Shown piece by piece: positions 18,785 to 24,014 of a stretch of DNA of 40,779 nucleotides. The notes beneath the pieces were generated by a model. That model ran no database searches and had not been told where the DNA came from. It worked only from the letters and a program-made list of their open reading frames with translations. Made by a program: the position numbers and the translations under genes. The stretch covers positions 1 to 40,779 of the forward strand of contig JAOUCZ010000008.1 of the NCBI GenBank assembly GCA_029859505.1, written 5' to 3'. Origin of the DNA: Lysobacterales bacterium (lineage in GTDB: Bacteria; Pseudomonadota; Gammaproteobacteria; Xanthomonadales; SZUA-36). Position 1 is the first letter of the stretch. Every line of letters starts with the position of its first letter.

Positions 18785-19600
18785 CTAAATTACGTCGACC
18801 GCATTACCCTGGTACTCAATCTGCCTGGCAAGTAGTTCTGGTTCCATACGGGTAACGACCATCAGGCTGGTGTCACCATCCTCACCGGACTGGCAGTCCA
18901 CAACAATCGCGTCATAAGATTGATCGTCACCAATCAAGCTGATTTTATCCATCAGGCCCGGACAAACGGTTGGTTTGCAGTTAAGCAGGCGGGGGTGGCG
19001 TTTTACCTTTCCCAGGTAATGTGTACGAGCGACGATTTCCTGGCCCGGGTAACAACCCTTGCGAAAATTGACAGCGCCAAGTTGGTCAAAGCCAAGCATT
19101 TGTGGCAGGAACTGACCGCTGGTTTCCGTGCTTAACCAGCAGACTCCTCTTTGCAGCTCTGATGTCCTCCAGCCATCCGATAGTTTGGTGTCGTGACCTG
19201 GAGCTTTGGCACGACTTATGATCGCAAGTTGCTGACCACTTCCTGGCAACGGGATGACGATCGTCGAACTTACCTCATGGTCTGACGAATTATCTTCGAA
19301 TAGAACTGCTACCACCTTTTCAGTCAGAACCTCAGTATCCACCTGTGAACGCATCACATACATCTTCAAACGCCTGGCAATTGAATCGGCGAGGGCTTGC
19401 GAGAGAATGACGAAATAATCATTGCCAACTTTGCTGACCAGCATCAGCGCCAGTACCCGTCCTTTGGGTTCGCAGTAACAGGCAAATACTGACTCCCCGG
19501 ATGATAAGGCCAGGACATCAGAGCTGACCTGATTGTGCAAAAAATCACCGGCATCAGCACCACTGAAGCAAATGGCTGACAGGTAGGGAAGTGCGATCAT
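18785..19600 (-). CDS. ygfZ: YgfZ/GcvT-like folate-binding iron-sulfur factor
   Basis: YgfZ is a folate-binding protein needed for normal activity of some iron-sulfur enzymes in E. coli (for example MiaB). The 271-residue product carries the family signature KGCYPGQE at 181-188, with the essential Cys at 183. The start at 19600 (MIALPYL) is chosen because the fold begins there and AGGAAA precedes it; an upstream in-frame ATG at 19663 adds 21 residues of unrelated sequence. It is divergent from the sdh operon; in E. coli the same gene is divergent from sdhE-ygfX, so the association is conserved. The link to iron-sulfur supply for SdhB is inference. Confidence 0.9.
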   Translation of the reverse strand: MIALPYLSAICFSGADAGDFLHNQVSSDVLALSSGESVFACYCEPKGRVLALMLVSKVGNDYFVILSQALADSIARRLKMYVMRSQVDTEVLTEKVVAVLFEDNSSDHEVSSTIVIPLPGSGQQLAIISRAKAPGHDTKLSDGWRTSELQRGVCWLSTETSGQFLPQMLGFDQLGAVNFRKGCYPGQEIVARTHYLGKVKRHPRLLNCKPTVCPGLMDKISLIGDDQSYDAIVVDCQSGEDGDTSLMVVTRMEPELLARQIEYQGNAVDVI

Positions 19601-19756
19601 TGGAGTGGGTTTCCTGTTCTTACTTGTAAATGATGTCCACTCGCATTTTACGGCACAATTCAATCTATAAAAAGATAAAGTGGACTCGCATGGTACCGCC
19701 TTTTGCCGTTACAATTCATGATTGGAGAAATTGACCGGGGTGCGGGGAGGTAATCA

Positions 19757-19936
19757 GTGAAGAATGACCAGTCAAAATCCTCGCGCGCCTCGTCAAATCC
19801 CTCCGCGAAAACCTCGAAGCAAGAACATCCAGTCCGTACAACCACCGAGAAGCCCACTGAAGTGGGTGGCCCGAAAGGTCCCGAGCCCACGCGCTATGGT
19901 GACTGGCAACAAGCTGGTCGTTGTACCGATTTTTGA
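19757..19936 (+). CDS. DUF1674 / SDHAF4-like succinate dehydrogenase assembly factor
   Basis: This 59-codon gene starts with GTG, six bases after GGGGAGG, and stops with TGA. The N-terminal two-thirds is hydrophilic and low in complexity (Ser, Lys, Thr). The C-terminus carries GGPKGPEPTRYGDW at 37-50 and ends GRCTDF, the hallmark of the DUF1674 family that includes eukaryotic SDHAF4/Sdh8. In eukaryotes that factor binds the flavinylated SdhA subunit before it joins SdhB. sdhC starts 31 bases downstream, so co-transcription with the enzyme is very likely. Its role in bacteria is inferred from family and position. It is easily missed because of its size, its GTG start and longer frames overlapping it on both strands. 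Confidence 0.9.
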   Translation: MKNDQSKSSRASSNPSAKTSKQEHPVRTTTEKPTEVGGPKGPEPTRYGDWQQAGRCTDF

Positions 19937-19967
19937 CTCACAATCCAGGGAGTAAAGGCAGCTAATA

Positions 19968-20354
19968 ATGAGTACCTCAAAACGCCCAATGTCACCCTAT
20001 ATGCTGGGGCCATATTACAAGTTCCAGATTACCTCGGTCCTGTCAATTCTCAACCGCCTTACCGGTGTGTTTATGTCGGTTGTAACTTTACCGTTATTGC
20101 TTTGCTGGCTGATTGCCCTGGCAAGTGGTGCAGATGAGTTTGCAGCCGTAAGCGCATGGCTGGGTAGTGGTCTGGGCAAGCTCGTCATCGCAGCTAGCGT
20201 CTTCAGTTTCAGTTTTCACCTGTTTGGCGGAATCCGTCACCTGATCTGGGATGCCGGTTGGATGATGGAGATGCCACAGGTGCGTATGTCCGGTTGGCTG
20301 GCCATCATTGGCTCGGTAGTACTGACACTCATCGTAATTGGAGCAGGCTTATGA
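19968..20354 (+). CDS. sdhC: Succinate dehydrogenase cytochrome b556 subunit
   Basis: SdhC is one of the two membrane anchors that bind heme b and ubiquinone. The 128-residue product starts with the family pattern RPMSPYM, has the quinone-site stretch SILNRLTG, and three helices (about 28-52, 62-85, 105-126). The heme-ligand region is FHLFGGIRHLIWD. Its stop overlaps the sdhD start (ATGA at 20351-20354), showing translational coupling. Confidence 0.95.
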   Translation: MSTSKRPMSPYMLGPYYKFQITSVLSILNRLTGVFMSVVTLPLLLCWLIALASGADEFAAVSAWLGSGLGKLVIAASVFSFSFHLFGGIRHLIWDAGWMMEMPQVRMSGWLAIIGSVVLTLIVIGAGL

Positions 20355-20731
20355 GTATGCAGAATCCTCTGGCCCGGGTCCGTGGTAAGGGTAGTTCAGG
20401 TGGGGGTGCTCACCATTGGCGTTCACAGCGTTACTCTGCGCTGATCCTTCTTTTATTAACGAGCTGGGTTTTGTGGCTGGGTATTTCGCTGGCTGGCGCA
20501 GACTATTCAACGGCCAAAATCGCCATGTCATCACCGCTCAATGCAGGTATGACCATATTGATGGCCGGTACCGTTTTTTATCACACGCACCTTGGTTTAC
20601 AGGTCGTGATTGAGGATTATGTACATATCGCAGCATTGGAATTTGCATTGTTGATATTTGTGCGTTTTGCCTGTCTTGTCGCATTCTTGATCAGTGCCAT
20701 CGCAGCTCTGAAACTGGTACTGGGAGCCTGA
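20351..20731 (+). CDS. sdhD: Succinate dehydrogenase membrane anchor subunit
   Basis: SdhD pairs with SdhC to hold heme b and the quinone site. The 126-residue product has a polar N-terminus (about 1-28) and three helices. FYHTHLGLQVVIEDYVH carries the heme-ligand His and the conserved Asp-Tyr pair near the quinone site. The start at 20351 overlaps the sdhC stop by four bases; a longer frame from 20258 runs through sdhC and is not used. Confidence 0.93.
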   Translation: MSMQNPLARVRGKGSSGGGAHHWRSQRYSALILLLLTSWVLWLGISLAGADYSTAKIAMSSPLNAGMTILMAGTVFYHTHLGLQVVIEDYVHIAALEFALLIFVRFACLVAFLISAIAALKLVLGA

Positions 20732-20734
20732 ACC

Positions 20735-22525
20735 ATGAGTAACGGTTATTCAATTACAGAACATAAATATGATGTCATTGTAGTGGGTGCTGGCGGTGCC
20801 GGTTTACGCGCGACCATGGGGCTTGCTGCAACCGGTTTAAAAACCGCATGTATTTCCAAGGTTTTCCCGACCCGCAGCCACACCGTGGCAGCACAGGGTG
20901 GTATGTCTGCCGCACTCGGCAACATGGGTGAAGACGACTGGCGTTGGCATATGTACGACACCATCAAGGGCTCGGACTGGCTGGGTGACCAGGATGCGAT
21001 CGAGTATATGTGCCGGGAAGCCGTGCCTGCAGTGATTGAACTGGAACATTATGGTGTACCGTTCTCACGTACGGAAGACGGCAAAATTTACCAACGGCCA
21101 TTTGGCGGTATGACTACCCATTACGGTGAGGGAACTGCACAGAGAACCTGCGCGGCAGCCGATCGTACCGGACATGCCATTTTGCACACCCTGTATCAAC
21201 AGGCACTGAAACATGACGCGACGTTTTTTATTGAGTATTTCGCGCTTGACCTGTTGATGGATGATGACGGTGTATGCCGGGGCGTACTGGCCTGGGATCT
21301 CGCCGAAGGTACATTACACCTGTTCCGGGCACACGCCGTGATCCTGGCTACCGGTGGCTATGGCCGCACCTATTTCTCATGCACGTCGGCTCACACTTGC
21401 ACCGGTGACGGCAATGGCATGGTTTTACGCGCCGGCCTGCCATTGCAGGATATGGAATTCATTCAGTTCCATCCAACCGGTGTTTATGGCGCCGGTGTCT
21501 TGATTACAGAGGGAGTTCGAGGTGAGGGTGGTTTCCTGACCAATTCGGAAGGCGAGCGTTTTATGGAACGATATGCGCCCAATGCCAAAGATCTTGCTTC
21601 ACGTGATGTGGTCAGTCGTTCAATGACCATTGAGATCAGGGAAGGACGTGGTGTTGGTCCCAAGAAGGACCATATACATCTGAACCTGCAACACCTGGGT
21701 GCTGATGTTATCAACAAGCGTTTGCCGGGTATTGCCGAGAGCGCAGAGATTTTTGCCGGTGTGGATGTCACCAAGGAACCTATTCCAGTCATTCCCACCT
21801 GTCACTACAACATGGGTGGCGTTCCTACGAACTACCACGGTGAAGTGGTGCATATGAAAGATGGCGACCCCGATGCAGTGGTCCCGGGCTTGTTTGCCAT
21901 CGGTGAAGCAGCCTGTGTTTCCGTTCATGGCGCTAACCGCCTGGGTTCAAACTCGCTTCTGGACCTGATTGTTTTTGGCCGGGCCGTTGCGCATCGTTGT
22001 GCGGAAGTGATCAAGCCCAATCAGCGTCATGACAACCTGGACCAGAAGATCGTGGATGACCTGGTCGCAGATTTTGATGGTATACGTCACGCTGACGGTA
22101 AAAACAGCGCAGCCAGCATCAGGGATGAAATGCAGCAGGTTATGCAAAATAACGCCGCTGTATTCCGTACCGGTGAGGTACTGGAGGAAGGCAGCAAATT
22201 GATTTCTGAGGTTTATGAAACCTTCAAAGACCTCAAGGTCAGCGACCGTTCCATGATCTGGAACTCCGATCTTGTCGAAACGCTGGAATTACGTAATCTG
22301 TTGGGTTGCGCAATGGTGAGTATGTCAGGTGCGGCAAACCGGAAAGAAAGCCGGGGCGCACACGCCCGTGAAGATTATCCTGACCGGGATGATGAAGACT
22401 GGATGAAACACACCCTGGCAAGCCTGGATGAATCCGGTAGCGTGTCTATCGACTACAGGCCCGTGCATCTGTACACACTGACAGATGACGTCGAGGTTGT
22501 CCCACCCAAACCACGTGTATATTGA
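20735..22525 (+). CDS. sdhA: Succinate dehydrogenase flavoprotein subunit
   Basis: SdhA oxidises succinate to fumarate with covalently bound FAD, linking the TCA cycle to the quinone pool. The 596-residue product has the N-terminal dinucleotide loop [11 protein letters not shown] (17-27), the flavinylated His in SHTVAAQGG (H49), the substrate-site segment [15 protein letters not shown] and the [16 protein letters not shown] motif. The C-terminus [16 protein letters not shown]...KPRVY is typical. Both SdhE and the DUF1674 protein encoded in the same operon would act on this subunit. Confidence 0.97.
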
Positions 22526-22540
22526 GAGGCAGGAATCCCA

Positions 22541-23326
22541 ATGCTCGAATTAAGATTACCCCCTGAATCCCGCCCGCAAAAAGGACAGAAGTTTTCTGCG
22601 CCCGAGGGTTCAAGCAATACCCGCACTTTTCATGTTTACCGGTGGGATCCTGATAAGGGTGAGAACCCCTGTATCGAAAGTTATGAAATTGACCTGGATG
22701 ATTGCGGGCCGATGGTGCTGGATGCCATTCTCAAGATCAAGAACGAAATTGATCCATCACTGACGTTCCGCCGGTCCTGCCGGGAAGGTATTTGCGGCTC
22801 TTGTGCAATGAATATCGACGGCACCAATACGCTGGCGTGCACCAAGCCGATTAGCTCGATCTCCGGCGACGTGAAAATCAACCCGCTGCCTCATCTGGAG
22901 GTGGTCAAAGATCTGGTGCCGGACATGACCCATTTCTATGCCCAGTACGCCAGCATCAAGCCATGGATTCGTACCCAAAGCGTGCCTTTGCCAGACCAGG
23001 AAAGATTACAATCTCAGGAAGACCGTGAAAAACTTGATGGCTTGTACGAATGTATTTTGTGTGCCTGTTGCTCTACTTCCTGCCCCAGTTATTGGTGGAA
23101 CGGCGACCGCTATCTTGGCCCGGCGATACTATTGCAGGCATACCGCTGGCTGGTGGATAGCAGAGACGAAGATACCGGTGAACGACTGGATGAGCTGGAT
23201 GACCCGTTCAGGCTTTATCGATGTCACACTATTATGAATTGTACTTCTACCTGTCCCAAGGGATTGAACCCGGCTAAAGCCATTGCAGAAACAAAGAAGA
23301 TGCTTCTGGAAAGGCAAGGAGCCTGA
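22541..23326 (+). CDS. sdhB: Succinate dehydrogenase iron-sulfur subunit
   Basis: SdhB carries electrons from FAD to quinone through three clusters. The 261-residue product has the [2Fe-2S] ligands C80, C85, C88 and C100, and two ferredoxin-like groups, C171-C174-C177-C181 and C228-C234-C238. The arrangement is complete for [2Fe-2S], [4Fe-4S] and [3Fe-4S] centres. The N-terminus is about 20 residues longer than in E. coli SdhB, with a polar stretch before [10 protein letters not shown]. It follows sdhA by 15 bases. Confidence 0.96.
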
Positions 23327-23341: not shown

Positions 23342-23590
23342 ATGTGTAGTGGTCAGGACAGGGTTAGAAAGCTGCGGTGGCAAAGCCGTCGCGGCATGAA
23401 AGAACTGGACGTACTTTTTGAAGCGTTTTTTGTGACCCAGGCTGAACCCTTGCTTGAGGGAGCCTGGCCAGAACTCGAAGTGCTGCTGGGACAAGAGGAT
23501 GACGTTTTATTTGACTGGGTTTCCGGCAGAGATTTACCAGCAGACCCTGCCTTACTGGATTTAATTAAGACCTTGACCAATGCTACTTAA
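23342..23590 (+). CDS. sdhE: FAD assembly factor SdhE
   Basis: SdhE (YgfY; eukaryotic SDHAF2) promotes covalent attachment of FAD to SdhA. The 82-residue product has the diagnostic RGMKE motif at 17-21 inside RRGMKELD, and the family pattern of a small five-helix protein with FLxxxDxxLFDWxxG-like spacing (here EDDVLFDWVSG). It lies 15 bases after sdhB. In E. coli the gene is away from sdhCDAB, so inclusion in the sdh operon is informative. The ygfX start overlaps its end by 11 bases. Confidence 0.93.
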   Translation: MCSGQDRVRKLRWQSRRGMKELDVLFEAFFVTQAEPLLEGAWPELEVLLGQEDDVLFDWVSGRDLPADPALLDLIKTLTNAT

Positions 23591-24014
23591 CAGACCAGTC
23601 AAATTGAGAGTTTCCAGCGCAAGTGATTTTATGCTGCCTGTTGGTCTGCTTAGCGTACTGCTTGTGATTGCAGCATTGATCAGCCCTTATCCCGTTGTGT
23701 TGTCTTTAGTTGTCATTGCTTCGGTCGGGGTTGGGTGGACAGCAACTATATTAAAGTTTTCTAAATCAACTAAGGTAAAATTGACCTTGGTCATTTTTCC
23801 CGATGGAAGGGTCCGTTTAGAATCTGATCAGTCAGATACAATTGAGGGTTTTCTGGATGGTCAGCAATGGTCTACCAGTTGGATTAGCGTATTGCGAGTT
23901 GTCGATGGGGGCAGGGTGCGCAAACTGCTGATTCGGTCCAGCTGTCAACGGCCAAAGGATAATTTTCGGCGCCTGAATATGTGGCTTCGACAAGGCTTGA
24001 ACTCCAGCACATGA
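23580..24014 (+). CDS. ygfX: YgfX-like membrane protein
   Basis: The 144-residue product has two closely spaced N-terminal helices (about 18-38 and 40-58) and a soluble C-terminal region containing the WSTSWISVLRV stretch and a polar tail. Size, topology and position directly after sdhE match YgfX (CptA). In E. coli YgfX has been described both as an SdhE-interacting membrane protein and as the toxin of a proposed pair; the sequence here does not decide between them. Similarity is moderate and mostly topological, so context carries much of the call. Confidence 0.78.
   Translation: MLLNRPVKLRVSSASDFMLPVGLLSVLLVIAALISPYPVVLSLVVIASVGVGWTATILKFSKSTKVKLTLVIFPDGRVRLESDQSDTIEGFLDGQQWSTSWISVLRVVDGGRVRKLLIRSSCQRPKDNFRRLNMWLRQGLNSST

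Follow-up and report, generated by a model that had tools for sequence, protein, structure and literature searches.

We propose that a 59-codon gene lying directly upstream of the succinate dehydrogenase operon of a Lysobacterales bacterium, here called AF4, encodes a bacterial SDHAF4, and thus a relative of the human mitochondrial complex II assembly protein. By analogy with its human counterpart, and with a probability that we put at roughly 0.75, AF4 would act as a complex II assembly factor that plugs the active site of SdhA and releases SdhE, after which SdhB binds. The gene was found in a window of 40,779 nucleotides, this being the whole stretch of DNA that was analysed (contig JAOUCZ010000008.1), in the order ygfZ, on the minus strand, followed on the plus strand by AF4-sdhC-sdhD-sdhA-sdhB-sdhE. 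The operon is therefore flanked by the genes of two complex II assembly factors, AF4 and SdhE. The features referred to below are as follows.

18785 to 19663, minus strand: ygfZ-like gene, used as a context marker, divergent from AF4 (TIGR03317, 83 bits against a cut-off of 49)
19660 to 19890, minus strand: rival open frame of 76 amino acids, overlapping AF4
19746 to 19750, plus strand: Shine-Dalgarno-like GGAGG, ending six bases 5′ of the AF4 GTG
19757 to 19936, plus strand: SDHAF4/DUF1674 gene (AF4), 59 codons, GTG start, TGA stop (Pfam PF07896)
19764 to 19955, plus strand: rival open frame of 63 amino acids, overlapping AF4
19859 to 19933, plus strand: conserved C-terminal block of AF4, codons 35-59, defined by alignment to human SDHAF4 and by the invariant columns of a 14-row alignment (A1)
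19968 to 20354, plus strand: sdhC, cytochrome b556 subunit (PF01127, E 3.4e-26; TIGR02970), starting 31 bases after the AF4 stop
20351 to 20731, plus strand: sdhD, membrane anchor (TIGR02968, E 3e-20, in the longer frame 20258-20731)
20735 to 22525, plus strand: sdhA, mitochondrial-type flavoprotein (TIGR01816)
22541 to 23326, plus strand: sdhB, iron-sulphur subunit (NF004616, E 2.4e-114)
23342 to 23590, plus strand: sdhE (SDHAF2/Sdh5), flavinylation factor (PF03937, E 1.6e-16)

Two further elements were observed at the edges of this cluster. Overlapping sdhE by 11 bases is a plus-strand frame (23580-24014) that is weakly CptA/YgfX-like (PF07254, 20.1 bits, below the cut-off of 27.3); CptA/YgfX is the neighbour of sdhE in E. 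coli too. Between ygfZ and AF4, at 19630-19699, a direct repeat of 25 bases occurs in two diverged copies that are 45 bases apart and 72% alike, a possible operator. Scans of the sequence returned no promoter-like site and a single stem resembling a terminator, located within the coding end, against an expectation of 0.6.

AF4 belongs to a family that already has a name. Its product matches the Pfam profile PF07896 (DUF1674) with an E-value of 5.2e-16, scoring 59.2 bits where the cut-off is 23.5, residues 21-59 aligning with profile positions 11-50, and it is the single DUF1674 match in the window's own genome (400 contigs, 88.67% complete). None of the NCBIfam models matched AF4 or any of the 14 members tried, and the sole plasmid record with an AF4 relative is annotated 'DUF1674 domain-containing protein'. 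A search of solved structures gave two matches in all; 1) human SDHAF4 (8dyd_C, E 2.3e-9; structures PDB 8DYD and 8DYE, Sdh8 in yeast), whose C-terminal block aligns with that of AF4 over 27 residues; and, 2) the bacterial DUF1674 protein RhR2 (PDB 2k5k, phmmer E 8.4e-7), which has the C-terminal block in common with AF4 and was deposited as uncharacterised. These matches uphold the proposal, made earlier in a sequence-only reading, that the frame carries the conserved C-terminal block of the DUF1674, or SDHAF4, family. The further suggestion of that reading, that automated annotation may overlook the gene, is no more than a conjecture. AF4 differs from the human protein in length (59 residues as against 108 in human numbering) and in being encoded directly 5′ of sdhC, and its function is putative.

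The residues through which human SDHAF4 engages its partner are all kept in AF4, and their partner residues are kept in SdhA. Specifically, a structure-chain alignment places AF4 E35, E43, D58 and F59 at human E84, E92, D107 and F108, while SdhA H49, R121, H357 and R402 correspond to human SDHA H99, R171, H407 and R451 (numbering by offsets to the precursor chain 8gs8_A). Sharma and colleagues report that E84 and E92 of human SDHAF4 contact SDHA R171, that D107 and F108 sit in the dicarboxylate site at H407/R451, that SDHA-SDHAF2 dissociation failed with each of five variants altered in the final two residues, and that isolated human SDHAF4 is disordered (PMC10784507). Among bacteria the D-F terminus is found in all 44 complete AF4 frames of our relatives set, the window's included (the 45th, in genome G011, is cut by a contig end), and E43 is replaced by Asp in some relatives in alignment A1.

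Based on these correspondences we suggest the following sequence of events; 1) SdhE would aid the attachment of FAD to SdhA; 2) AF4 would dock on SdhA R121 through E35 and E43; 3) D58 and F59 of AF4 would thread into the dicarboxylate site at H357/R402; 4) AF4 would shield the new flavin and push SdhE off; and, 5) SdhB would take over and the enzyme be completed. We infer the binding of AF4 and the order of steps from the human work, from which the release of SdhE is taken in its entirety, and the displacement of AF4 by SdhB would be our own addition to it. SdhE itself shares with AF4 a gene cluster and a target subunit (PMC10238741), but is of another Pfam family, PF03937, and acts at the flavinylation step.

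An alternative is that AF4 is a true SdhA chaperone which in bacteria serves mainly to block the active site of free SdhA and to protect its flavin, with SdhE leaving by itself, so that AF4 would matter only under oxidative or assembly stress. Such a role would agree with the shielding of FAD from solvent by SDHAF4 during assembly (PMC10784507), and with the lack of AF4 in several genomes that have sdhCDAB and usually SdhE. However, human SDHAF4 does displace SDHAF2 (PMC10784507), and SdhE accompanies AF4 in 69 of 69 AF4-bearing genomes of a class-wide sample (tables compared by eye), although this company is weak evidence because SdhE is common anyway (248 of the 276 genomes sampled). We consider this alternative improbable, while still giving it appreciable weight.

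The pattern of presence and absence on which this alternative draws was followed among 61 relatives, the window's own genome counted in. Whole-genome searches with the Pfam profile found DUF1674 in 45, of which 40 carry AF4 on the same strand as sdhC and directly 5′ of it (hit-to-hit gap of 25 to 264 bases), and the place before sdhC given in the sequence-only reading holds. Wherever ygfZ was located in these 40 genomes (36 of them), it lies upstream and divergent (36/36). SdhE accompanies AF4 in 43 of the 45, the two misses being in genomes that are 77% (G023) and 85% (G026) complete. Three genomes of one family (G040, G051 and G060; loci L071, L083 and L078) have ygfZ beside an AF4-sdhE pair, with sdhCDAB elsewhere, an arrangement resembling the ygfZ and sdhE pair of E. 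coli with AF4 added in front. In the last two, AF4 either has no ygfZ, sdhE or sdh neighbours (G053) or stands at a locus cut by the contig end (G011).

The remaining 16 relatives have no DUF1674. In 12 of them ygfZ adjoins sdhC with no AF4 between, one of the 12 (G033) having no SdhE match either; two (G012 and G036) have loci cut before sdhC; and two (G002, 97% complete, and G009, 82%) have no SdhE and no mitochondrial-type SdhA. No diverged, hidden AF4 was found by a six-frame motif search of the fetched loci, either in the 16 relatives (L031-L051) or in 23 genomes of the class sample (L225-L247); the motif search covered these loci, and whole genomes were covered by the Pfam profile alone. 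An 816-base ygfZ-sdhC gap in G027 holds two opposite-strand frames and no AF4; by eye, these frames (L103, 5126-5763) look like an AbrB/MazE-type antitoxin and a PIN-like protein. When the presence of AF4 is mapped on a tree of SdhA plus SdhB from 51 genomes, seven changes are required, and well-supported branches make five of these unavoidable. AF4 comes and goes while sdhCDAB stays, and repeated loss is the simplest reading because the neighbouring genes remain in place, although the tree is no proof of the direction of change.

Within the samples analysed, AF4 occurs only with one type of SdhA. The SdhA of the window is closer in score to mitochondrial SDHA chains (800-903 bits) than to E. 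coli SdhA (681 bits), and we distinguish a mitochondrial type from an other type, these labels being our own, with mitochondrial and E. coli sequences left out of the trees. All 45 AF4-bearing relatives have the mitochondrial type, including the four whose AF4 is not next to sdh (G040, G051, G053 and G060). For the class sample of 276 genomes, the mitochondrial type was set at 64% or more identity to the window's SdhA (839 bits or more, or fragment G113), the next SdhA listed having 744 bits and below and 54-58% identity. By this measure 92 genomes have it, two of them as fragments assigned by identity (G113 and G119), and 69 have DUF1674; all 69 are among the 92, and DUF1674 occurs in 0 of the 184 others. 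These 184 include 31 for which the threshold used gave no match to SdhA and, judged by the SdhA matches listed, may hide fragments of the mitochondrial type, which leaves the 69 unaffected. A phylum sample of 299 genomes gave the same picture, with all 112 DUF1674 genomes falling within the 120 that have mitochondrial-type SdhA (888 bits or more, the next being 775) and none among the 179 others, 16 of which had no SdhA match. The two samples share some genomes and relatedness inflates both sets of counts, so that Fisher p values, which ignore kinship, are not readable as probabilities. DUF1674 was matched in only one of 14 control genomes, that of Caulobacter vibrioides.

Mitochondrial-type SdhA is found without AF4 in the 12 relatives with ygfZ beside sdhC, in 23 of 92 class genomes and in 8 of 120 phylum genomes, and AF4 is therefore dispensable in some settings. 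The tie to SdhA type is not due to linkage alone: among the best 80 of at least 538 named DUF1674 loci, AF4 stands before sdh in 31 and before sdhE in one, and the other 48 show no sdh operon downstream within the fetched stretch (up to 4 kb), one of these (L167) having an SdhA-like match upstream. Three DUF1674 loci (L146, L213 and L212) are titled Klebsiella pneumoniae (two MAGs) and Mesoflavibacter sp., labels which look wrong for such genes.

The residues predicted to receive AF4 do not account for this restriction. R121, H357 and R402 are invariant in all 51 relatives whose SdhA is usable, but equally so in 17 of 17 SdhA proteins of the other type, and therefore cannot explain it and are necessary at best. 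SdhA N359 and Y251, near the active site by motif, are among the positions that divide the two types, being fixed in the 39 rows that have AF4 and missing from all 17 other-type proteins sampled. Comparison of AF4-bearing with AF4-lacking genomes gave no convincing dividing position in SdhA, the best in one comparison, position 302, not being among the best in another. In an SdhA tree of 86 rows, a fully supported branch sets the 17 other-type proteins apart from the rest, among which the presence of AF4 changes 11 times. In the best rpoB tree, built from 71 genomes, SdhA type switches ten times, although no more than three switches are required by supported branches. The three supported contrasts are too few to decide the matter: AF4 changes in parallel with SdhA type in an average of 0.5 of them, in the opposite sense in none and not at all in 2.5. 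The co-occurrence of AF4 with mitochondrial-type SdhA is thus strong in count and, as a functional dependence, unproven.

What has been reported of the complexes themselves fits the restriction of AF4 to genomes with mitochondrial-type SdhA, the human SDHA-SDHAF2 complex being stable and its bacterial counterparts being said to dissociate readily (PMC10238741). In 2018, work on an assembly intermediate of E. coli stated that no bacterial SDHAF4 homologue had been identified, and left open whether bacteria have a counterpart or simply a weaker SdhE complex (PMC5773532). Homologues in alpha- and gamma-proteobacteria have since been mentioned in a 2023 review (PMC10238741) and a 2024 structure paper (PMC10784507), so that the sequence-only reading was right to describe the bacterial members as much less studied, but their existence is already in print. 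Among the listings that searches of the open literature returned, no title or abstract opening mentions the operon position of AF4 or its tie to SdhA type, which is no proof that these points are new. We tentatively suggest, at somewhat less than even odds, that SDHAF4 is a hallmark of the alpha-proteobacterial/mitochondrial SdhA clade, in bacteria and mitochondria alike; that the relay from SdhE to AF4 would predate mitochondria; and that lineages with the other SdhA type would never have needed AF4, because their SdhA-SdhE complex dissociates unaided.

The comparison with relatives confirms that the AF4 frame is conserved. Neither of the outcomes named by the sequence-only reading as refuting it appeared, since the Pfam match is strong and the frame persists in relatives. 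Six congeners carry it (G001, G003, G004, G005, G007 and G008), and in these and the window (7/7 genomes) there is no internal stop across the 180 bases. The GTG start proposed earlier is well supported, because ATG stands at that codon, 59 places 5′ of the stop, in 6/6 congeners, some of which have an open frame extending upstream, so that for those an earlier start is possible. The GGAGG lies at the six-base spacing first claimed for it; the same GGAGG is absent from the 25 bases upstream of AF4 in all six congeners. Purifying selection acts on the C-terminal block, codons 33-59 giving a pN/pS of 0.12 (all pairs, gap-free alignment). For codons 2-32 the value is 0.74, the N-terminal half diverging almost freely and having no conserved block in alignment A1.

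Could the frame instead serve sdhC as a leader peptide or as a translational coupler, with its sequence incidental? It is short and lies immediately 5′ of sdhC, 31 bases away, as such an element might. However, a C-terminus conserved from bacteria to humans, the pN/pS of 0.12, the placement before sdhE and away from sdhC in the G040, G051 and G060 family, and the 48 named loci with no sdh operon downstream in the fetched stretch rule this out as the main reading and leave it very improbable. That AF4 is a chance frame, the true gene being one of the longer overlapping frames, is more improbable by far, for although such frames do exist on both strands, as the sequence-only reading noted in calling them spurious, and the antisense one is open over the overlap in 3/6 congeners, the 63-residue plus-strand frame is broken in 6/6 (its one Pfam match being below cut-off, to an unrelated family, E 0.036), the overlapped part of the 76-residue antisense frame is broken in the other 3/6 (no Pfam match), and AF4 itself has the Pfam match, the congener ATG and the low pN/pS.

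If the hallmark reading of SDHAF4 is true, a weaker SdhA-SdhE complex would be expected in those lineages that have lost AF4. The restriction of AF4 to genomes with mitochondrial-type SdhA, together with its scattered natural absences, makes the question left by the 2018 paper testable as a contrast between bacteria, and bacterial hosts may allow the late steps of SDHA maturation to be studied without mitochondria.
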